A DNA stretch of 64,000 nt from Ferruginibacter sp. GTDB taxonomy: Bacteria > Bacteroidota > Bacteroidia > Chitinophagales > Chitinophagaceae. How positions within the stretch are numbered: position 1 is the first letter of the stretch; each line of letters opens with the position of its first letter. Both the position numbers and the translations under genes were made by a program. The stretch lies in the NCBI GenBank assembly GCA_016786725.1, contig JAEUVU010000007.1:62001-126000 (forward strand), in the 5' to 3' direction. Under the pieces are notes generated by a model, which ran no database searches, was not told where the DNA came from, and saw only the letters and a program-made list of their open reading frames with translations. This document shows, one piece after another, positions 31,687 through 41,976 of the stretch.

Positions 31687-34398
31687 TTACTCAAGAACCG
31701 GCCTTAACCATCTTGTAGTATCATCTATGCTCATTCCTTTTCTGTTAGCATAATCTGCCAACTGGTCTTTTTCAATTTTGCCTACGCCAAAATATTTACT
31801 TTCCGGGTGTGCAAAATACCAGCCGCATACGGATGATGCCGGATACATGGCCAATGATTCGGTAAGATGAATGCCGGTTGCTTCTTCTCCGCCTAATAAA
31901 TTAAACAGCTTGTATTTTTCTGTATGATCAGGACAGGCGGGATAGCCAGGTGCCGGACGGATACCGGGGTATTCTTCTTTGATCAATTGTTCATTGGTAA
32001 GATTTTCTTCTGAAACATATCCCCAATATTCAGTTCTTGTTTTTTTATGAAGCAGTTCGGCAAATGCTTCTGCCAACCGATCAGCTAAAGCCTGTAAGAT
32101 AATTTTGTTGTAATCATCATGATTGGCTTCAAAGTTTTTAGTGTGTGCATCAATACCCTGAATGGTAACGCTGAAGGCGCCGATATGATCCTGGTAATTC
32201 TGTTCTGCCGGTGCAATAAAATCAGCTAATGATAAATTTGGTTGTCCCGCTGTCTTTTTTATTTGCTGACGCAGAAATTCAAGTTTTATTATTTCAGAAT
32301 TATTATCTACATCAATGGTATCATGATCAATTTTATTTGCAGGCCAGAAGCCCACAACACCTTTTGCAGAAAGCCATTTTTCATCAATGACCTGTTGCAG
32401 TAATTTTTTTGCATCATTATAAAGCTTTGTTGCTTCTACACCAATTACACTATCGGTAAGTATGGCCGGGAATTTTCCATGCATTTCCCAGGCAATGAAG
32501 AAGGGTTGCCAGTCAATGTATTCAGCAATTTCTGCAAGATCATAATTGTTTAAAACTTTCGTACCTGTAAAAGCTGGTGTAACCGGGTTGAAATTTGTCC
32601 AGTCAATTACGGCGCCATTTTGCTGCGCCTCAGCAAAAGTTACATATTGTTTGGTAGATTTTTTGTTTCCGAAATCTTCTGCCAGTTTATCGTATTCTGC
32701 TTTTATACTTTGCAGGAAGGCCGGCTTTTGTTCTTTGCTCAGTAAACTGCCGGCAACTGTTACGCTTCGGCTTGCATCCAATACATGCACCACGCCTTCA
32801 TCATACTGAGGTGCAATTTTTACTGCCGTGTGCATACGGGAAGTAGTTGCGCCACCGATCAATAAAGGGAGTTTAATATCACGCCGCTTCATTTCATGTG
32901 CCACATGCACCATTTCATCCAGCGAAGGCGTTATCAATCCGCTTAAACCAATGATATCAACTTTTTCTTTAACTGCTGTTTCTAATATTTTTTCGGTTGG
33001 CACCATTACGCCCAGGTCAATAATATCGTAGCCATTACAACCCAATACCACACCAACAATGTTTTTTCCAATATCATGCACATCGCCTTTTACGGTGGCC
33101 AGCAAAATTTTTGCTGCGCCGGAGGTTTCTTCAGTTGCAGCGCCTGCCAGCTGGTTTTCTTTTTTGCGCTCTTCCTTCTCCTGTTCTATAAACGGTGTTA
33201 ATACTGCTACCGCTTTTTTCATTACCCTTGCACTCTTCACCACCTGTGGTAAAAACATTTTGCCGCTGCCAAAAAGGTCTCCTACCACATTCATTCCATC
33301 CATCAACGGGCCTTCAATAACATCCAATGGTTTGGGATATTTTAGACGGGCTTCTTCTGTATCAGCGTCAATATAATCTGTAATTCCGTTTACCAGGGAG
33401 TGCGATAAACGGCTTTCTACTGATTCTTTTCTCCAGTTTTCATCTTTAACTACTTCTTTGCCCTTTGCTTTAACAGTTTCGGCAAAGGCAATCATTTTTT
33501 CTGTTGCCTCGTTGTTATCGTTATTCCTGTTTAAAATAACATCTTCACAAAGGTTACGTAGTGTAGGTTCTATCTCATCATAAACAACCAGCTGGCCTGC
33601 ATTTACAATGCCCATATCCATACCGGCTTTAATGGCATGAAAAAGGAATACGCTATGTATAGCTTCACGTACATGCTCATTTCCCCTGAAAGAAAAAGAC
33701 ACATTACTTACACCGCCGCTTACTTTGGTAAGCGGCATTAGTTTTTTTATTTCTCTTGTAGCTTCAATAAAGTCAACTGCATAATTGTTGTGTTCTTCAA
33801 TACCGGTTGCAATGGCAAAAATGTTGGGGTCGAAAATAATATCCTGCGGGGCATACCCAACCTGCTCAGTTAAAATCTTATAAGCCCGTTTGCATATTTC
33901 TACTTTACGGTTTTTGGTATCTGCCTGTCCCACTTCATCAAAAGCCATTACAATTACTGAGGCGCCATAACTTTTGCAAATAAAAGCCTGCTCAATAAAT
34001 TTTTCTTCGCCTTCTTTCATCGAAATGGAATTCACGATGCATTTACCCTGTACACATTTTAAACCGGCTTCAATAATTTCAAATTTTGAAGAATCGATCA
34101 TGATGGGAATCTTCGCAATATCGGGTTCTGATTGAACGAGATTAAGGAAGGTGGTCATGGCCTGTACACCATCCAGCAAGGCGTCATCCATGTTCACATC
34201 AATAACCTGTGCGCCATTTTCTACCTGCTGGCGGGCAACAGCCAGGGCTGCTTCATACTGGCCTTCACGAATCAGGCGTGCAAACATTTTGCTGCCGGTA
34301 ACATTGGTGCGTTCGCCAACGTTTATAAAATTTGTTTCAGGGCGAACGATCAAAGGCTCCAGCCCACTTAATCTTAAATATGGTTTTATTATACTCAT
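31687..34398 (-). CDS. metH: Methionine synthase, C-terminal part (folate, B12 and activation domains)
   Basis: 903 residues from the ATG at 34398. It contains the pterin-binding domain ([28 protein letters not shown]), the helical cap, the cobalamin domain with the His-on motif [11 protein letters not shown], and the SAM-dependent reactivation domain ([18 protein letters not shown]). The homocysteine/zinc domain is missing and is encoded separately at 34880-35941. Together they would form a complete B12-dependent methionine synthase. The split lies exactly at the interdomain linker, so both parts can fold independently. Confidence 0.95.
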
Positions 34399-34407
34399 TT
34401 TGATATT

Positions 34408-34875
34408 GAACCACCAAGGCACAAAGGCACGAAGTGGCACTAAGTTTTATAAAATAATTCTTTTGATTCCATCCCGCATTAAAGGCACATGAAAATTCAT
34501 TAAGAAACCTAAACGTTTATCAGTTAGTTTTAAATAACTTATTAATTGTGCTTCCCAAACCGGGTGATAATTTTCCTGGGCTTTAAACTCAATAATAACC
34601 AAATCTTCAATTAAGCAATCCAACCTCAGTCCATCATCTATTTTTAGACCATTGTAAATTATAGGTACTAATTTCTCTCTTTCAAAATTTAAATTCCTAT
34701 TTGTCAATTCATGATAAAAACACTTTGCATATACACTTTCTAATAACCCTGGCCCCAATTGTTTATGAATATTGATAGCAATATCAACCATTTGCTTTGC
34801 TATCCATTCCTCTTTTTCTGATAATGTCAAGTACATAGCTTTGTGTTTCTTCGTGCCTTGGTGTCTTCGTGGTTC
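34408..34875. mobile_element. GxxExxY gene with 37-bp inverted repeats between the metH halves
   Basis: The gene at 34447-34836 is bracketed by inverted repeats at 34408-34444 and 34839-34875, each 37 bp, identical at 30 positions and sharing the core AAGGCACGAAG. The outer ends lie 10 bp from the metH C-part start and 4 bp from the metH N-part stop. This looks like a small inserted cassette. No transposase is present and no target duplication is obvious. Confidence 0.6.
34447..34836 (-). CDS. GxxExxY protein (PD-(D/E)XK-like)
   Basis: 129 residues. The name-giving motif is GLLESVYAKCFYHEL (G-x-x-E-x-x-Y), followed by the nuclease-like strand pair DGLRLDCLIEDLVIIEFKA, whose D and E-x-K match the PD-(D/E)XK fold. 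Such small proteins are frequent in Bacteroidota and lack an established role. Its inverted-repeat flanks and its place between two metH genes suggest insertion. Confidence 0.85.
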   Translation of the reverse strand: MYLTLSEKEEWIAKQMVDIAINIHKQLGPGLLESVYAKCFYHELTNRNLNFEREKLVPIIYNGLKIDDGLRLDCLIEDLVIIEFKAQENYHPVWEAQLISYLKLTDKRLGFLMNFHVPLMRDGIKRIIL

Positions 34876-34879
34876 AGTT

Positions 34880-35941
34880 TTATGCTAAAGCTTCTTCAAT
34901 TACCGGCAATTCTCTTGGTTTGAATTTGCTTACCTCCTCCGCAATATGTTTTATATGATCAGGTGTGGTGCCGCAGCAACCGCCTACAATATTTACAAAA
35001 CCCTCCTTAGCCCATTCTTCAATGATATGAGCCGTTTCGTGCGGCTGCTCATCGTACTCGCCAAAGGCGTTTGGCAAGCCTGCATTGGGATAGGCTGAAG
35101 TATAACAACCGGCTATCTGGCTCAGTTCTTCAATATGCGGCCTCATTTCTGATGCACCCAGGGCACAGTTCAACCCAATACTTAATGGGTTGGCGTGCAT
35201 TACAGAAACATAAAAAGCTTCCAGTGTTTGTCCGCTTAAAGTGCGGCCGCTGGCATCGGTTATAGTACCGGAGATCATGATCGGCAAGGCCCCCTCTATC
35301 TCCCCCGGTGGGGGAGGAAATCCCGAAGATTGGATGGAAGATTGGCGGGTTTTGAAAAAATTAATAGTTGCGTAGATGGCAGCTTTTGCGTTCAGTGTGT
35401 CAAAAATGGTTTCAATTAAAATGATATCAACGCCTCCGTCAACCAGCCCATTTATCTGTTCGGTATAAGCAGTTGCTACTTCATCAAAAGTTACGGCCCT
35501 GAAACCGGGGTTGTTTACATCAGGCGATAAAGACAATGTTTTATTTAACGGCCCGATTGCACCCGCAACAAACCTTGGCTTGTCAGGATTCTTTGCTGTG
35601 TATTCATCCGCAGCATTTCTTGCGCATTTTGCCGAAGCAACATTTAACTCATAAGCCAGCGATTGCATATCGTAATCGGCCTGGGCAATGGAGGTGCTGC
35701 TGAAAGTGTTGGTTTCAATAATATCGGCACCGGCTTCCAGGTATTGTTTGTGGATGCTTTCGATGATTTGCGGCTGCGTAATACTCAACAGGTCGTTGTT
35801 GCCTTTTACATCGGTATGCCAATCCTTAAAACGTTCGCCACGATAATCTTTTTCATCCAGTTTGTGGCGCTGTATCATGGTGCCCATGGCGCCATCAATG
35901 ATCAGGATTCGGTCCTTTAAACAGTCTTGTAATGTTTTCAT
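34880..35941 (-). CDS. metH: Methionine synthase, N-terminal homocysteine-binding part
   Basis: 353 residues. It is the zinc-dependent homocysteine methyltransferase barrel with the start [17 protein letters not shown]. The zinc cysteines are in GLNCALGA and [10 protein letters not shown]. An insertion of about 19 residues ([18 protein letters not shown]) interrupts the usual sequence before [16 protein letters not shown]. It is encoded by a G-rich palindromic repeat. The protein works with the C-terminal part at 31687-34398, from which the GxxExxY cassette now separates it. Confidence 0.93.
35289..35345 (-). repeat. In-frame repeat inserted in metH
   Basis: On the minus strand this stretch reads CCTCCCCC, ACCGGGGGAG, then AGAGGGGGC and encodes about 19 extra residues in a conserved loop of the barrel. 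The core at 35289-35320 is related to 23059-23092 in the methyltransferase gene. Confidence 0.65.
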
Positions 35942-36016: not shown

Positions 36017-36099
36017 CACCATAAACTTATAAACGAGAATCAATCTGGAGAAGGTATTGCAGAATTGCTTTCGTTTATTAGTTCTATTTCCTTCGATTT

Positions 36100-36121
36100 C
36101 CCTGCCTCACAGCAGGCAGGG
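36100..36121. repeat. CCCTGCCT / AGGCAGGG hairpin in the metH leader
   Basis: An 8-bp GC-rich stem with a 6-nt loop. A relative (CCTGCCT / AGGCAGG) lies at 42753-42772. Such elements are dispersed in intergenic DNA of Bacteroidota. Confidence 0.6.
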
Positions 36122-36166
36122 CTCAGGACAGGTTGAACAATAAACAAATCCACCTGTTTGATGGTG

Positions 36167-36213: not shown

Positions 36214-36328
36214 AAAAAAGAAGCCCCGGGGGGTAGCGGGGCCTAATTACTTTTTGGTTCTTTGGTAATGTTTGGTTTTCGTTGGATTCGGATACTTTGG
36301 TCTTGTGTTGGGATACTGGATTAAATTT
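36214..36328 (-). ncRNA. Candidate small RNA, array unit 1
   Basis: Predicted from the -7 box at 36335-36342 to the terminator hairpin GCCCCG / CGGGGC at 36223-36242, which is followed on the minus strand by TTCTTTTTT. About 115 nt. The body is rich in A and C, poor in G, repeats ATCC and CCAA words and contains no ATG. It lies 15 bp before the -33 box of metH and is separated from it by its own terminator. Start estimated to within a few bases. Confidence 0.7.
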
Positions 36329-36334
36329 CTGATG

Positions 36335-36426
36335 TAAAAATAATACGCATTAACCCGGAATAAAAATGAAAGGCTGTAAACTGATGTTTCTGGCAGCTGA
36401 AAAGGCATTTTCGGCAACTGAACCGG
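36335..36426 (-). promoter_or_regulatory. Array promoter 1 with two LytTR-type direct repeats
   Basis: -7 box TATTTTTA at 36335-36342 and -33 box TTTTT at 36362-36366 are 19 bp apart. Direct repeats TGAAAAGG at 36398 and TGAACCGG at 36419 (plus-strand reading) start 21 bp apart. The nearer one starts 63 bp from the -7 box, as in units 2 to 5. Confidence 0.75.
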
Positions 36427-36444
36427 AAACAGAACAATGGATAT

Positions 36445-36583
36445 TAAAAAAACCCCCGGTTTATCGGGGGCTTTTAATGAATTCTGATTCAGTGGTTTTC
36501 TGGTTTTTACCGGATAGTGGATACTTTGGTTATCAGGTTTTCTAAGGTAATTGGATGGTCTTTAGTTGGATATTGGTTGGTTT
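36445..36583 (-). ncRNA. Candidate small RNA, array unit 2
   Basis: About 139 nt on the minus strand, ending in hairpin CCCCCG / CGGGGG (36453-36470) and seven T's. The first 25 nt include ACCAACCAATATCC, shared with units 3 and, in part, 4. No ATG occurs in the body. The terminator sequence differs from those of units 1 and 5 while the stem is preserved. Confidence 0.75.
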
Positions 36584-36589
36584 CTGCTG

Positions 36590-36681
36590 TAAAAATAATG
36601 CGGCATTTGTTGTTTAAAAACTAAAAGAGATTAAATGGTATAATTGAGATGCTGAACCGGAAATTTTGGGTATTGAACCGG
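36590..36681 (-). promoter_or_regulatory. Array promoter 2 with two LytTR-type direct repeats
   Basis: -7 TATTTTTA (36590-36597), -33 GTTTT (36617-36621), spacing 19 bp. Two identical TGAACCGG octamers at 36653 and 36674, 21 bp apart and 63 bp from the -7 box. Confidence 0.8.
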
Positions 36682-36708
36682 ATATAGCAGGTTTCAACAG
36701 TTATATGA

Positions 36709-36852
36709 AAAACAAAACCCCGATGCTTCGGGGGTTTGCAAGAACTTTTTGTTCAGTGGTGTTTGGATTTTCGTTGGATTTTTGGATACGATACTTAACC
36801 CTGGTTTTCTTAGTGTATTGGATTGGTTCTTTAAATGGATATTGGTTGGTTT
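36709..36852 (-). ncRNA. Candidate small RNA, array unit 3
   Basis: About 144 nt with hairpin terminator around 36717-36735 and a T tail on the minus strand. The 5' part again carries ACCAACCAATATCC, followed by repeated AATCCAA words. No ATG is present. A plus-strand open frame at 36666-36893 crosses this unit but has no sign of being a gene. Confidence 0.75.
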
Positions 36853-36858
36853 CTGATG

Positions 36859-36950
36859 TAAAAATAGTGCTGCATTTGTTGTTTAAAAACTAAAAGGTAT
36901 TAAACCGTTTGTTCCGGCTTCTGAACAGGTGTTTAGCAGGGCTGAACCGG
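36859..36950 (-). promoter_or_regulatory. Array promoter 3 with two LytTR-type direct repeats
   Basis: -7 TATTTTTA (36859-36866), -33 GTTTT (36886-36890), spacing 19 bp. TGAACAGG at 36922 and TGAACCGG at 36943 are 21 bp apart and 63 bp from the -7 box. Confidence 0.8.
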
Positions 36951-36991
36951 AAATACATTACCTGGTAACCATATGATTGGCGCTTTTTGGC

Positions 36992-37131
36992 AAAACAAAA
37001 CCCCCGTTTACCGGGGGTTTGTAATAACGTAAGAGATTCGTAGGTAATGTTTGGTTTTAAACAGATAATTGGATCAGGATTGGTTTTCGTTGGATCAGGA
37101 TCTGGTTTTTTTAATTGGATATTGGTTGCTT
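36992..37131 (-). ncRNA. Candidate small RNA, array unit 4
   Basis: About 140 nt ending in hairpin CCCCCG / CGGGGG (37001-37017) and a T-rich tail on the minus strand. It shares AACCAATATCC near its 5' end and contains three GATCC words. There is no ATG. Confidence 0.75.
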
Positions 37132-37138
37132 TACGATG

Positions 37139-37230
37139 TAAAAGTAGCATGGGTTTTACTATTATAAAACTAAAATGCACTGTACCGAACTTTCTTGTAA
37201 CCGAACCGGTATTTAGCCAAACTGAACCGG
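37139..37230 (-). promoter_or_regulatory. Array promoter 4 with two LytTR-type direct repeats
   Basis: -7 TACTTTTA (37139-37146), -33 GTTTT (37166-37170), spacing 19 bp. CGAACCGG at 37202 and TGAACCGG at 37223 are 21 bp apart and 63 bp from the -7 box. Confidence 0.8.
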
Positions 37231-37261
37231 AAACCTGCTGTGAAAAGGGTAGTTTATAAAA

Positions 37262-37380
37262 AGAAAAACCCCGGTTGGGACCGGGGCTTTAAGAATGTTG
37301 TGTTTCTTTGGTAATGGATGTTTTCTTTGGATAAGTGAGGTTTTCTATAGGATTACAGAATTTTAAAACGCTTAACTTCT
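37262..37380 (-). ncRNA. Candidate small RNA, array unit 5
   Basis: About 119 nt, the most diverged body. Hairpin CCCCGGT / ACCGGGG (37269-37287) with a T tail. It has no ATG and the same A/C-rich, G-poor make-up (TTATCCAAAG, ACATCCATTACCAAAG). It is the unit nearest the LytTR regulator gene. Confidence 0.75.
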
Positions 37381-37386
37381 GTAATA

Positions 37387-37478
37387 CAAACATACAACGG
37401 GATGCCGGTGTGTAAAACTAAAATGCACCCAGTTAAATGATTTGGCAACTGAACAGGAATTATTGGGGGCTGAACCGG
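37387..37478 (-). promoter_or_regulatory. Array promoter 5 with two LytTR-type direct repeats
   Basis: -7 TATGTTTG (37387-37394, an exact consensus match), -33 GTTTT (37414-37418), spacing 19 bp. TGAACAGG at 37450 and TGAACCGG at 37471 are 21 bp apart and 63 bp from the -7 box. The distal repeat lies 10 bp from the end of the LytTR regulator gene. Confidence 0.85.
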
Positions 37479-37487
37479 AAAGCCTAT

Positions 37488-38261
37488 TTACTTTTCATCG
37501 CCCAGCCAGTGCTTAAAATCGGCCGAACGTTCCGTACTTACAATGGTTTCGTGCTTTGCAGGAGGGTTTAACTTGATAAGCACCCTGCTTTTGCTGTAGG
37601 CAAACATTTCGGCAATAGAGTGGATGCTGATTATGTACTGCCTGTTAATGCGGAAGAATGCTTTGGGGTCCAGGATCGAGTCAAGTGTATCCAGGTTAAA
37701 ATCAACTACAAAACGGCGGGCATCTTTGGTGCAAAGGAATGTGGCTTTATCTTCTGTATAAAAATAAACCACTTCTTCGGTATCAATTGTTTTTATATGC
37801 TCGCCGTATCGAACCACAAAACGTTTTTTGTATTCAGTGCTGTTGGTTGGCTGCAGCGATTGCAGAAGTTTGTTGATATCAATGGCTGGTGCCGCTGAAG
37901 TGGCAGGAGTTAACGACCGGAATTTAGTTACCGCTTTTTCCAGTTCTTCTTTTTTTACGGGCTTTAATAAATAATCAATGCTGTTTACTTTAAATGCCTC
38001 AATAGCATATTGATCGTATGCGGTTGTAAATATGATAGGGCATTTTACATCAACCTGTTTAAAGATATTAAAGCTGATACCGTCTGATAATTGTATATCA
38101 GAAATGATCAGGTCGGGAGCTTCATTTTCTTTGAAAAATTTTACGGCCGATGAAACACTTACGATCTGGTCAGGCATTACATGATCCGGCTCAATATCCT
38201 TCAGCATTTTTTGTAAACGCCTGAAAGCCGGTTCTTCGTCTTCTATAATAAGTATAGTCAT
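37488..38261 (-). CDS. LytTR-family response regulator
   Basis: 257 residues. The receiver (1-120) has E7/D8, phospho-acceptor D55 in LIISDIQLSD, Thr79 and Lys100 in YLLKPV. A linker rich in Ala, Thr and Pro follows. The C-terminal LytTR domain (about 145-250) has FVVRYGEHIKTIDTEEVVYF, FFRINRQYIISI and the strand-loop that enters the major groove. LytTR domains bind paired direct repeats about two helical turns apart. Such pairs precede each of the five array units and this operon. The ATG overlaps the kinase stop (TAATG). Confidence 0.94.
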   Translation of the reverse strand: MTILIIEDEEPAFRRLQKMLKDIEPDHVMPDQIVSVSSAVKFFKENEAPDLIISDIQLSDGISFNIFKQVDVKCPIIFTTAYDQYAIEAFKVNSIDYLLKPVKKEELEKAVTKFRSLTPATSAAPAIDINKLLQSLQPTNSTEYKKRFVVRYGEHIKTIDTEEVVYFYTEDKATFLCTKDARRFVVDFNLDTLDSILDPKAFFRINRQYIISIHSIAEMFAYSKSRVLIKLNPPAKHETIVSTERSADFKHWLGDEK

Positions 38262-41161
38262 TAATCTGCTGAGTTTAGAACGGGTAAAATTACAGTAAAA
38301 TCAATTCCATCGTCGGTTACAGAAACGTTTTCACTACTCAATAAATTGTATCGTTTTACAATATTTTGTAATCCGGTGCCGGTGCCGGCCTCCCTGGTAA
38401 TTTTTGGATTAATGTTGTTTTTAATTACCAGCCTGTCATTTTCAAGATAAATCTTTATCTCCAGCGGTGTTTCTTTGGATACGGCATTGTGTTTAATTGC
38501 ATTTTCAATTAAAAGCTGCAGGGTAAGCGGTGGTATAAATATATGTTTTTTTTCTTCGGCTGATATTGAAATGTTGAGCGATAAATATTTTCCGTGCCTT
38601 TTTTGCTGCAGGTAAAAATAAGTTGTTAATACACCCAGTTCTTCTTCAAGACTAATTATATCCTGGTCACGATAGTTCACAATATTCCTGAAGAAGGAAG
38701 AAAGCTTTTCTACATAATCAACGGCCAGGGCAGGGTCATCTTCAATAAAAGAAATGAGCGTATTAAAACTGTTGAACAGGAAATGAGGATTTACCTGGTT
38801 GCGTAAAACCTGGAACTGAAACTGTATCTTTTCCTGCTCCAGCTTTTGCAGTTTTTTTAAATTGTGTTCCCTGTTTTTTATGTACCGGTAAAGCAAACCA
38901 CCGGTCAGTAAAACGAGCAAAGCAATAAACCAGGGCCTTTTCCAGAGTGGCTTTGCAATTACAAATTCATACGTTGCTTCACTGGCATTTTCAAAATTGT
39001 CACTCAGCGATGACCTTACATGAAATTTGTAAGTACCGGGCTGCAGGCGTAAAAAAGAAACATTTCTATCCCTGGTAGAAACCCAGGCGGTATCAAGCCC
39101 CTCCAGTTTATATTGATAACGGATATCATCAGGATTGGTATAATAAAGGCCAGAAAAATAAAACTGGAATGTATTCTGATCGCTGCTGTAATCGCCACGC
39201 TGATCTTTGTCAACATCAGATAAAAACAATTGCACATTCTCAATAACCGTTTTGGGCTGCAGGCTGATGTTTTCGCCGGGACTGTAGGTAACTATGCCAT
39301 TTGCTGTGCAAAAAATAATATTAGAAGCAGCATCTTTTGCTACGGCACCCGTATAAAGGTTTATATCTGCAATGCCTGTACTGGCAGCATGATAAGAAAA
39401 GGTTCCTGTATTGACCGACAAAATATCAATTCCTTTTTTATTTACTGCAATAATATTTCCCCAGGCATCTGTTTGCAAAGAAGTGATCTCGAGGTCGCTG
39501 AGGCCCCGGGCCGTTGAATAGTTCTTAAAGCTTTTTCCATCAAAGCGATAAATGCCTGCGCTCTTTGTATTGAACCAGATATTGCCTTTTTTATCTTCTG
39601 TTAAAGAAAAAATACGGTCATCAAGCAGCCCGTTTTCTTTTCCGTAATGCAAAAATTTTCCGTTCTGTAAAACATTCAAACCTTTTTCGCCCATGGCAAA
39701 CCATAGCCTGTTGCGGCTGTCTTTGTAAATGGTGTAAATATAATTGGTGCCGATATTCTCGTTGTCGCTGTAGTTGGTGTATTTGTAACGGGCGTTGATG
39801 CTGTTGGCTGTGCCGCTGATATCAAAAGATGCAGCAACACCTTCAAACCCGCCAACACAAGCCGTTTGTCCCTTGCCTGTAACAGATAAAATGCTGGCAT
39901 TTTTCAAGAGCGGATTTTCATCAAGCAAGCGATGCCGGCCTGTTTGCGGATCAAGCAGCAATACACCTTTGCCCATGGTGCCTATCCAGATGTTGTGATT
40001 GTCATCCTGGTACAAACAGGTTATATCTGTTTTATTATTTAACTCTGCAAAGCGATAATCTTTTTTTTTGTAAATACCGTTTGTAAAAGTGTATTTGGTA
40101 AGATAGTTACCTGTAGCTACCCAGTAATTATCCTGATGATCGCAGAGCAGGGCACGAATCTTTTCAAAAACGGCTTTATCGTAAAGCGGTAGCAACTGTA
40201 ATTGTTTGCCTGCTGTTTTGCAAAGTGTTGTTGTTGTGTTGGCCCATATATTTCCTTCATCATCCTGCAGCAGGCCGGTTACTTTATTTCCTATGGTTAC
40301 TGAGCTGCTATAGGGTTGAGCCGGCCCGTTATTTAGACTTTTATATAACAAACCATATTCTTCAGTAGCAATCCACAAATTTTTTTGAGAAACGAGTAAT
40401 GCATTTACCTGTCCATATTGCCAGGCCGAATCAACCGGCTGTACAGTTATTTTTCCATTGTTGTGATTGTACAAACAAAATCCTTTTTCCTGTAAACCTA
40501 TCCAGAACATATTGTTATCCGCCGGTGTTATGGCTGTAACATAATAATCCGGCAATCCTTCATTTGGTGAAATGGATCTGACCTTTATTTTACCGTTTAC
40601 ATTTTGGCAAATATTGAGCCCAGCATCTGTTGCGGCAAGCATATCGCCATTGGCAGCCTGCACCAGTGCATGTATGTGCAGGTCTGTCATTCCATTGGCA
40701 GAGTCAATTAAATAAAGACGATCTTTTACAAAATGATAAATGCCTTCACCGTTGGTAGCTATCCAGATATTATTTTCTTTGTCCTGTAAAAATGAAGTAA
40801 TGGCTGCACCGGGGTGCCCTTCTTCGGGTTCAAAATATTCAAGCTTGGAATTTATTTTTTTTGCAAGGCGGCCGCTTTTAAAACCTATCCAAAGCTGGCC
40901 GCTTTTATCCTGGAATATGGCAGTAACCGTATCTTTTATTCCCGGCTTTGTAAAATTTATCTTTTTGAAACTGATGCCGTCAAATGAGTACAGCCCTTCA
41001 GTGGTGCCGGCAAAGATGTAGCCATCATATGTTTTGTATAAGTTGTTTATTTTAACCGGGTGATTGTTTACTGTAAGATTAAATGACCTGAAGCCCGGCT
41101 CCTGGGCATGAGCAGCCTGCATCAAAACACATACAATCAATATGGTCAGTAAACTTCTCAT
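38261..41161 (-). CDS. LytS-type sensor histidine kinase with two-component propeller domain
   Basis: 966 residues from the ATG at 41161. The open frame begins eight codons earlier with a TTG, but the ATG gives a clean signal peptide (MRSLLTILIVCVLMQAAHAQ). The periplasmic part is a repeated beta-propeller (YKTYDGYIFAGTTEGLYSF, DKENNIWIATNGEGIY, KGNIWFNTKSAGIYRF), then a Y_Y_Y domain (about 610-730). After a membrane helix (about 742-760) come the His-kinase motif NPHFLFNSFN (about H793) and an ATPase with LQLLIENAIKHNA. It lies between the YceI gene and its partner regulator. The ligand is unknown. Confidence 0.93.
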   Translation of the reverse strand: MRSLLTILIVCVLMQAAHAQEPGFRSFNLTVNNHPVKINNLYKTYDGYIFAGTTEGLYSFDGISFKKINFTKPGIKDTVTAIFQDKSGQLWIGFKSGRLAKKINSKLEYFEPEEGHPGAAITSFLQDKENNIWIATNGEGIYHFVKDRLYLIDSANGMTDLHIHALVQAANGDMLAATDAGLNICQNVNGKIKVRSISPNEGLPDYYVTAITPADNNMFWIGLQEKGFCLYNHNNGKITVQPVDSAWQYGQVNALLVSQKNLWIATEEYGLLYKSLNNGPAQPYSSSVTIGNKVTGLLQDDEGNIWANTTTTLCKTAGKQLQLLPLYDKAVFEKIRALLCDHQDNYWVATGNYLTKYTFTNGIYKKKDYRFAELNNKTDITCLYQDDNHNIWIGTMGKGVLLLDPQTGRHRLLDENPLLKNASILSVTGKGQTACVGGFEGVAASFDISGTANSINARYKYTNYSDNENIGTNYIYTIYKDSRNRLWFAMGEKGLNVLQNGKFLHYGKENGLLDDRIFSLTEDKKGNIWFNTKSAGIYRFDGKSFKNYSTARGLSDLEITSLQTDAWGNIIAVNKKGIDILSVNTGTFSYHAASTGIADINLYTGAVAKDAASNIIFCTANGIVTYSPGENISLQPKTVIENVQLFLSDVDKDQRGDYSSDQNTFQFYFSGLYYTNPDDIRYQYKLEGLDTAWVSTRDRNVSFLRLQPGTYKFHVRSSLSDNFENASEATYEFVIAKPLWKRPWFIALLVLLTGGLLYRYIKNREHNLKKLQKLEQEKIQFQFQVLRNQVNPHFLFNSFNTLISFIEDDPALAVDYVEKLSSFFRNIVNYRDQDIISLEEELGVLTTYFYLQQKRHGKYLSLNISISAEEKKHIFIPPLTLQLLIENAIKHNAVSKETPLEIKIYLENDRLVIKNNINPKITREAGTGTGLQNIVKRYNLLSSENVSVTDDGIDFTVILPVLNSAD

Positions 41162-41174
41162 TAGCTTATGCCGG

Positions 41175-41729
41175 TTATTTTTCAACCAGTTCTGTCATCA
41201 CTTCTACCTTAATATCCGTAGCAATTTTTTGTTCGAGAATTTTTGGTATAGCAATATTAAAGTCGGCCAGTAAAACGATAAAATTTGATTTAACGCTAAC
41301 CACACCGTTCTTAATGGTAAGATTGCATTTGATGATACGCTCCTGCACCACACCATGGATTGAGAGGTTTCCTTTTGCCCTTATGTTGTACAAGCCATCC
41401 CGGTGCAGGTCAATATTCTCAATTATTTTTCCTTCAAAAGCAGCGGTTGGAAATTTATTGCTTTCAAGATAATTTTCGTTGAAGTGTTTCTTTTGTGTAG
41501 AAGTCCTGAAACCTTTAAAGGTTTTGATATCAACCGTAAAAGCAAATTGCCGGGTTTCAGGATTCAGCCACCCTTTTAACTGGTTGCTGTTTGCTTTAAT
41601 AAGTTCCAGTGGGGCATCTGAAGTAAAAGTGATGGTACCGGTTTTGGCCAAAAAATTTAAGCCCGGGGCATAAGCATAAGCTGAACTTAATACTACGATT
41701 AATAAAAGTATAAAGTACTTCTGCTTCAT
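41175..41729 (-). CDS. YceI-like periplasmic protein
   Basis: 184 residues from the ATG at 41729. A signal peptide (MKQKYFILLLIVVLSSAYA) is followed by a lipocalin-like YceI barrel: FTVDIKTFKGF, HFNENYLESNKFPTAAFEG and GNLSIHGVVQERII. YceI proteins bind isoprenoid or lipid-like molecules. It is the first gene of the operon with the LytS kinase and LytTR regulator (13 bp to the kinase) and may present or sense the ligand. Confidence 0.9.
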   Translation of the reverse strand: MKQKYFILLLIVVLSSAYAYAPGLNFLAKTGTITFTSDAPLELIKANSNQLKGWLNPETRQFAFTVDIKTFKGFRTSTQKKHFNENYLESNKFPTAAFEGKIIENIDLHRDGLYNIRAKGNLSIHGVVQERIIKCNLTIKNGVVSVKSNFIVLLADFNIAIPKILEQKIATDIKVEVMTELVEK

Positions 41730-41739
41730 TAAGTGGGTT

Positions 41740-41844
41740 CTTTTTAGCAATCGAAACCGGGTTGTTCAAAACAGGAGTGAAATGCGCCGGTAATGAAACC
41801 TCTCTTACGCACTATATCATCCTGATGAATAAATTGCTAAAAAG
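41740..41844. repeat. 12-bp perfect inverted repeat in the YceI leader
   Basis: CTTTTTAGCAAT at 41740-41751 and ATTGCTAAAAAG at 41833-41844 are exact reverse complements 81 bp apart in the predicted leader. The inner arm ends 10 bp before the YceI ATG, so the stem could affect translation of the operon. Confidence 0.65.
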
Positions 41845-41884: not shown

Positions 41885-41976
41885 TAAAGATAGAGCAGAT
41901 ATACGTATTTCTACGAGAGAGCAAACCAGGCAGGGAAAAATCGCCACCGAACAGGGATTTTTAAAGACTGAACGGG
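41885..41976 (-). promoter_or_regulatory. Operon promoter with LytTR-type direct repeats
   Basis: CGAACAGG at 41948 and TGAACGGG at 41969 are 21 bp apart, and a -7 box TATCTTTA lies at 41885-41892, exactly 63 bp from the nearer repeat. This is the geometry of the five array promoters. The -33 position (41912-41916) is poor (TCGTA on the minus strand), which would fit activator-dependent transcription of YceI, kinase and regulator. Confidence 0.65.

Follow-up and report, generated by a model that had tools for sequence, protein, structure and literature searches.

Organization of the locus

The window, by which we mean the whole 64,000-nucleotide stretch of DNA analysed, comes from a Ferruginibacter genome (Chitinophagaceae) of 3.87 Mb in 27 contigs, here called G000, and its minus strand carries in succession a YceI-like gene, a sensor kinase gene, a LytTR response regulator gene, a 1.5-kb array stretch, and metH. 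The YceI-like protein (41175..41750; Pfam PF04264, E 7.1e-12) is likely encoded by the first gene of an operon with the sensor histidine kinase (38261..41185) and the regulator (37488..38261). The regulator, a predicted activator, unites a Response_reg domain (PF00072, E 9.9e-14) with a LytTR domain (PF04397, E 6.7e-17) and is 90% identical to that of Ferruginibacter sp. JAOAUI010000035.1. A preliminary description of this DNA had labelled the kinase LytS, but Pfam gives a Reg_prop/Y_Y_Y/His_kinase protein and not a classical LytS.

Between the regulator gene and metH the same description had placed five tandem minus-strand units, and all five are present as it had them, each composed of an operator pair, a promoter, a CCAA-rich and G-poor body without ATG, and a terminator. 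The repeat pairs do lie at 36398/36419, 36653/36674, 36922/36943, 37202/37223, and 37450/37471, and in every unit the repeats are 21 bp apart with the nearer one 63 bp from the -7 box, such that the 9-mers begin 84 and 63 bp before the first base of a TAnnTTT[AG] box starting, on the minus strand, at 37394, 37146, 36866, 36597, and 36342. Of the two promoter boxes originally assigned, the -7 box stands, while the -33 element is merely loosely TTTT/TTG-like by eye.

Unit 1, next to the regulator gene, has the LytTR pair CCGGTTCAG / CCTGTTCAG (37449..37478), followed by the -7 box (37387-37394), the predicted sRNA, and a terminator at 37265-37290 (37258..37394 altogether). Unit 2 has CCGGTTCAG / CCGGTTCGG (37201..37230) with a weaker third copy at -42, and extends from -7 box through predicted sRNA to terminator over 36992..37146 (terminator 36998-37020); unit 3 again has CCGGTTCAG / CCTGTTCAG (36921..36950), its promoter, predicted sRNA, and terminator (36718-36733) occupying 36708..36866. 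The corresponding features are CCGGTTCAA / CCGGTTCAG (36652..36681) and 36441..36597 in unit 4 (terminator 36453-36470), and CCGGTTCAG / CCTTTTCAG (36397..36426) and 36214..36342 in unit 5 (terminator 36221-36244). A GC hairpin with T's does end all five units; four are in the minus-strand scan list, and that of unit 4, which the scan lists on the plus strand only, was read from the sequence, where the minus strand gives a CCCCCG/CGGGGG hairpin and then seven T's. On both strands together there are 8 terminator-like sites as compared with 1.6 (sd 1.3) in shuffles. The predicted RNAs would be about 115-145 nt long.

The operator-promoter arrangement

LytTR operators consist of two 9-11-nt repeats with an 11-13-nt spacer, according to PMC4847170, and the 9-mers of the tabulated units, separated by a 12-nt spacer and located upstream of an RNA promoter, bear out their initial identification as operators of this type. 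A regulator with receiver and LytTR domains (Pfam) is encoded right beside them, as expected for a LytTR-activated regulatory RNA.

We searched for the arrangement as a pattern consisting of the repeat pair, 54 nt, and the -7 box, allowing up to 3 mismatches and using the reversed pattern as control. The 3.87 Mb of the source genome gave six matches, one for each of the five units and one for the promoter of the operon that encodes the regulator, and none for the control. The sixth pair lies beyond the interval first described (41885..41976, minus strand; 3 mismatches), upstream of the YceI-kinase-regulator operon, and with repeats at -84/-63 and the -7 box TATCTTTA it has the same geometry and is predicted to be an autoregulatory promoter. 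Over 93 Ferruginibacter genomes there were 21 matches in 6 genomes, with 0 control matches in each: 6 in G000, 6 in G010, 4 in G041, 3 in G037, and 1 each in G069 and G015. The match in G069 sits after the regulator gene. Those of G010 comprise 4 units, the operon promoter, and one site before a gene, and the regulon is therefore not RNA-only in that genome. This last site (L094; G010:C39:3115-3206) matches the LytTR promoter pattern with 3 mismatches, and the gene behind it is sigma-factor-like by eye.

The -84/-63 spacing occurs in 16/16 units found with a regular expression for the -7 box in G000, G041, G010, and G037, and unit 4 of the window, which that expression missed (TATTTTTACAGC), has it as well. 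It holds throughout 18 tabulated units and 2 operon promoters, a set in which one unit of G037 (G37_d) was first found by that spacing and later also by the RNA model described below, and in which the two operon promoters were found by the pattern itself. In G010 all three registers of the operon promoter are filled, a third repeat lying at -42. A third repeat at -42 was also considered for the RNA units, where the mean score is 4.5/9 (two operon promoters included) against a background of 2.1, but the signal is weak because offsets of -90 (4.4) and -79 (4.1) score as high.

Occurrence of the units in related genomes

The preliminary description had made the presence of a similar array beside the same kinase-regulator genes in relatives one test of its proposal, and such arrays were found in G041 and G010. 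G041 has five units after the same kinase and regulator genes (regulator 77% identical) and then metH; G010 has four units after the same genes (regulator 90% identical), and its contig breaks off in the metH leader that follows. The four units of G037 are scattered over three contigs, with no operator beside the orthologue of the regulator in that genome. At the G037 loci L022, L030, and L031 the units stand singly, and no relative of the kinase or regulator of the window was seen in the stretches read there.

The covariance search of related genomes that had been suggested was carried out with a model (R1) extending from -7 box to terminator and built from 17 units. At E <= 1e-3 it returned 32 matches in 17 of the 93 genomes: 18, all of the LytTR type, in G000, G010, G041, and G037, and 14 weaker matches spread over 13 further genomes. 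Units of the LytTR type are thus rare, being present in 4/93 Ferruginibacter genomes, and this weighs against the explanation favoured below. With a stricter setting and 344 genomes of the family, the source genome and some of the same genus included, only the source genome and G338 were matched, the G338 match being weak and having the other, palindromic operator type described below. Applied to 23 loci without an array (regulator orthologues, paralogues, and other relatives), R1 gave only matches of E >= 0.04, which were discarded.

Given that the units of G037 are dispersed and that the copy number of the array varies among relatives, one might regard the units as leftovers of promoter-terminator duplication or as a small repeat element, from which no RNA has been selected. 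We consider this very improbable. When orthologous units of G000 and G010 are compared, the RNA bodies prove as conserved as the terminators (324/406 and 115/144 identical positions, 80% each) and more so than the promoter spacer (57/84, 68%), the distal repeat is identical at 36/36 positions, and yet the spacers between units differ in both length and sequence. Of six inverted-repeat pairs reported, moreover, not one borders a unit, and the spacing of CC pairs within the bodies, described below, is far from that of shuffled sequences.

The slot downstream of the regulator

At E <= 1e-75 regulator orthologues are found in 20/93 genomes (23 loci). A CCGGTTCAG-like pair lies in the slot directly after the regulator gene (within 1.5 kb) at 10/17 of the closer loci, among them loci with no RNA array, in a scan made without a shuffled control, nine of them by the standard test and that of G064 by a looser one. 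Weighing on the other side, no pair was seen beside the orthologue in G037, G025, G004, G063, G032, or G034, and the G002 contig ends 45 nt after the regulator. In G069 the regulator gene is followed by a perfect pair, but there is neither an R1-detectable unit nor the gene that occupies the slot in other relatives.

That gene, of ~133-144 codons, is found in six genomes (G044, G064, G092, G033, G013, and G070), and its product, judged by eye from a signal-like start followed by a cysteine, would be a small predicted lipoprotein. The G044 protein has no Pfam match. Its close relatives in the 93 genomes (E <= 1e-34) are exactly those six, each beside the regulator, and in the RNA-bearing genomes the search found nothing nearer than remote paralogues at other places (E 1e-10 to 1e-19). 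In 5/6 of the lipoprotein-gene promoters the repeat pair is at -63/-42, one 21-bp period closer than in the RNA units, which gives a register rule of -84/-63 for the RNAs and -63/-42 for the protein gene; for G070 there was no -7 match at the latter distance. G033 has a short promoter-terminator unit before the lipoprotein gene, with weak repeats (6, 5, and 6 of 9) at -84/-63/-42. The lipoprotein gene may be the older output of the slot, later exchanged for RNAs. Such an exchange would not have been one clean event, because in the tree the lipoprotein-bearing G092 is nested within the RNA-bearing clade (94/88 support).

In a paralogous clade of regulators (44-50% identity), CAGGTTCAG-type pairs come immediately after the gene at 6/6 loci (L144-L149), where they precede a gene of 430-444 codons that by eye is lipoprotein-like with internal repeats. 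The pairs shift from CCGGTTCAG to CAGGTTCAG with the paralogous regulator, and therefore operator and regulator vary together. These six loci appear to be another regulator-operator-target module.

The pairs might nonetheless be bound by another LytTR regulator, or another factor, and not by the neighbour: three genomes have a second match at E <= 1e-75, a first look gave 3-51 candidates per genome, and in G037 the regulator gene and the units do not share a contig. Set against this are the position of the operators directly after the regulator gene, the way they vary with the regulator in the paralogous clade, and the presence of one before the regulator's own operon, and we judge it unlikely. 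That the neighbouring regulator controls five small RNAs, as originally proposed, is strongly supported by the recurrence of the array, the operators after the gene, and the co-variation with paralogues, transcription being predicted from sequence, and a noncoding RNA array under this regulator is in our estimation very probable.

Properties of the RNA bodies

The 17 bodies are 47% A, 24% C, and 10% G. RNAalifold on the unit alignment (A1) places pairing in the terminator only, and the minimum free energies of the bodies are between 0 and -7.3 kcal/mol in 16/17 and -15.9 in one. No Rfam family reaches the gathering threshold in the window except tRNA; apart from tRNAs there were only sub-threshold matches, mostly terminator-like, which were set aside. 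No CsrB/RsmX-type Rfam match to the units appeared, even at E up to 5.

Whether the units instead encode short peptides can be judged from their reading frames. A mechanical 96-aa frame starting with GTG (36890-37180) covers unit 2 and the start of unit 3, and one G010 unit has a 28-aa frame. The 96-aa frame, however, has no Pfam match, begins before the -7 box of unit 2, and crosses both the terminator of unit 2 and the operator of unit 3; the five window units contain no ATG and no complete frame from ATG, GTG, or TTG; and ATG is depleted over the 17 units (4 versus 12.3 in shuffles). Coding units appear to us exceedingly improbable.

What the bodies do have is a repeated short motif. ATCCAA occurs 39 times in the 17 bodies versus 4.1 times in dinucleotide shuffles, and 66/145 isolated CC pairs over the 17 RNAs read A[AU]CCAA. 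Each RNA has 4-12 CC, spaced mostly 5-12 nt apart. Steps of 6 nt (20 versus 2.1 in shuffles) and 10 nt (21 versus 2.1) between isolated CC pairs are in excess, part of which reflects the smaller number of isolated CC in the shuffles overall, and steps of 5-12 nt make up 101/125 (81%) of those of 3-21 nt versus ~48%; the bodies are related to each other, and these counts are therefore not independent. CCC is avoided (12 versus 44 in shuffles). Between G000 and G010, C's inside CC are kept in 60/71 cases and other C's in 16/25. Such spacing and conservation would be the pattern expected of an RNA with multiple protein-binding sites.

Proposed mode of action

We think it probable, on balance, that the five cassettes are regulator-driven paralogous noncoding RNAs acting in trans as multi-site decoys. 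The kinase would phosphorylate the LytTR regulator, which would then bind the repeat pairs and switch on the five RNAs together with its own YceI-kinase-regulator operon. The five copies may serve to supply dose, and the RNAs would titrate an RNA-binding partner that recognises the evenly spaced A[AU]CCAA motifs, candidates for which are RRM-type RNA-binding proteins, Rho, or a ribosomal protein. The source genome encodes two RRM_1 proteins; RRM proteins do not track the RNAs, because they are present in 17/20 genomes searched, the source genome included. The regular CC spacing lends itself to a direct search for the binding partner.

Regulator-driven RNAs could alternatively be antisense sRNAs that pair with mRNAs, for example those of outer-membrane proteins, the copies widening or strengthening control. 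The single-stranded 5' stretch with a terminator is as in FopS of Bacteroides (PMC11697453), paralogues have largely retained the 5' block CAGAAA..CCAATATCC, which also turns up in the palindrome group described below, the conserved 5' end CAGAAACCAATATCC might just as well serve as a seed, and the lipoprotein-like appearance of the protein targets of this regulator family fits envelope control. Pairing with 279 start regions (in ~364 kb, roughly a tenth of the source genome) nevertheless showed little or no excess over shuffled RNAs, with 100, 104, 127, 114, and 57 pairings at or below -14 kcal/mol for the five RNAs as against 92, 98, 120, 115, and 57. Moreover, conservation of C's is higher within spaced CC pairs than elsewhere, and neither CCTCC nor CTCC, a C-rich anti-Shine-Dalgarno motif, occurs in any of the 17 bodies. 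We accordingly place the antisense explanation well below even, while regarding the narrower choice of decoy over antisense action, taken by itself, as evenly poised.

Mimicry of mRNA leaders was considered and dropped: CCAA and ACCAA are slightly up before start codons and TTGG is down, and by our estimate base composition explains most of this.

A predicted second switch upstream of similar RNAs

Outside the LytTR genomes, 12/14 of the weak R1 matches have the inverted repeat A[AC]GTA-N4-TAC[GT]T (at most 1 mismatch) exactly 87 bp before the -7 box, outside the region covered by the R1 model; L060 and L061 have no palindrome at -87. The exact pattern, AAGTA-N4-TACTT at -87, has 66 matches in 35/93 genomes, and because its reversed control has 22, single matches are no proof. 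None was found in G000, G010, G041, or G037. The sequence AACC[CG]AATTTTTA is found downstream of AAGTA-N4-TACTT promoters.

Of 30 palindrome loci read, 17 lead by eye to CCAA/ATCC-rich, G-poor RNAs and the others to genes or nothing clear; at L123 the palindrome promoter stands before a lipoprotein-like gene. The palindrome promoters (L095-L124, L169-L196) often appear to drive CCAA-rich RNAs, several per genome. Among them, 27 bodies chosen for low G and a C content of at least 17% measure 102-377 nt, and their CC spacing is similar, peaking at 5 and 6 nt. In two further genera of the family (G438, G480, G379, and G346; G111), for which L199-L203 were read, RNAs with the same 3' hairpin module score >49 bits. 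Raw tallies with a model of this module (R2), 78/93 and 107/394, were set aside and not used as family counts, because weak matches can be bare terminators (L204, 47.7 bits).

These observations lead us to suggest, tentatively and at somewhat less than even probability, a new class of sponge RNAs in the Chitinophagaceae with evenly spaced A[AU]CCAA, plugged as a ready output into unrelated sensor systems, the RNA being kept while the switch is swapped, and here having taken the slot of a lipoprotein. If so, LytTR pairs would drive the class at this locus and the AAGTA-N4-TACTT palindrome in relatives.

Relation to known systems

RNAIII (AgrA), VR-RNA, VirT, and VirU (VirR), and SpoZ (RgaR, which we take to be a LytTR-type regulator) resemble the array in having an AgrA/VirR-like regulator with a small direct regulon that includes noncoding RNA. 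Firmicutes have LytTR-type regulators that switch on regulatory RNAs from repeats spaced by 21 bp (PMC10602386, PMC4227749), and for SpoZ PMC10602386 gives repeats at G-51/G-72, with this same spacing ahead of the RNA promoter, as in the array. Unlike RNAIII, VR-RNA, and SpoZ, the present RNAs are CCAA-rich, have a promoter of the Bacteroidota type, and form a tandem array of five beside the regulator, and in relatives the output at the array slot is a small predicted lipoprotein. The layout had been put forward as an undescribed family; the RNA family does look new, but LytTR-driven regulatory RNAs as such were already known. As far as we have searched, novelty lies in the RNA family, in its arrangement as a tandem array next to the regulator, in the register rule, and in the exchange with a lipoprotein-like gene.

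Several paralogous sRNAs are also known from other bacteria. The csRNAs are under one response regulator, CiaR, and csRNAs and LhrC use a C-rich anti-Shine-Dalgarno motif, whereas CCTCC is missing from the bodies of the array, as noted above. The Cia-dependent csRNAs of Streptococcus, five in number, and LhrC of Listeria are among the examples in the available text of PMC11697453, which also describes FopS and GibS of Bacteroides thetaiotaomicron, multicopy sRNAs with a single-stranded 5' part and a terminator, and the RNA-binding protein RbpB. Like the array, FopS and GibS represent many paralogous sRNAs in one Bacteroidota genome; the FopS genes number 14, with no LytTR operator mentioned in that text (PMC11697453), as against five with LytTR operators here. 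In a general Rfam screen, which does not necessarily hold a FopS model, the units have no match at threshold.

In sponges of the CsrB/RsmZ type, a two-component regulator drives RNAs with many copies of a short motif. The array likewise has many copies of one short motif per RNA, its recognition being predicted, but CsrB/RsmZ present GGA in hairpin loops and the array A[AU]CCAA in mostly unstructured RNA. The open-access literature yielded nothing on noncoding RNA or sRNA in Chitinophagaceae and nothing on CsrB-type sponge RNA in Bacteroidota, and Ferruginibacter is unnamed among the matches listed from the open-access small-RNA literature. Outside Bacteroides, post-transcriptional control in Bacteroidota is, as far as we are aware, poorly understood. 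The locus offers a complete testable module of sensor, regulator, operator rule, and five RNAs, and it comes with natural comparisons, namely the same switch with a small predicted lipoprotein and the same kind of RNA with another switch.

The metH gene and its leader

Downstream of the array, metH of the window (31687-35941, minus strand) is broken into two frames of 353 and 917 aa. A 129-aa ORF (34447-34836) lies between the halves, and in L021 the aligned halves are ~40 nt apart. A conserved leader precedes metH at 36031-36156 (minus strand) and is found at 11 loci of Ferruginibacter and its kin. It has no Rfam match at threshold. Its motif is CAGG[CT][GA]GATTTGTTTATTGTTC[AG][AG]CCTG, a variable linker, and GAACTAATAAACGA, to which the nearest relatives add TCTCGTTTA. 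By eye the leader could fold as a hairpin with its loop pairing with GAACTAATAAAC in a pseudoknot. The outer stem, imperfect in L036, shows compensated changes to GGGG/CCCC in L140 and GGGA/TCCC in L141, and we regard the leader as a riboswitch-like candidate.
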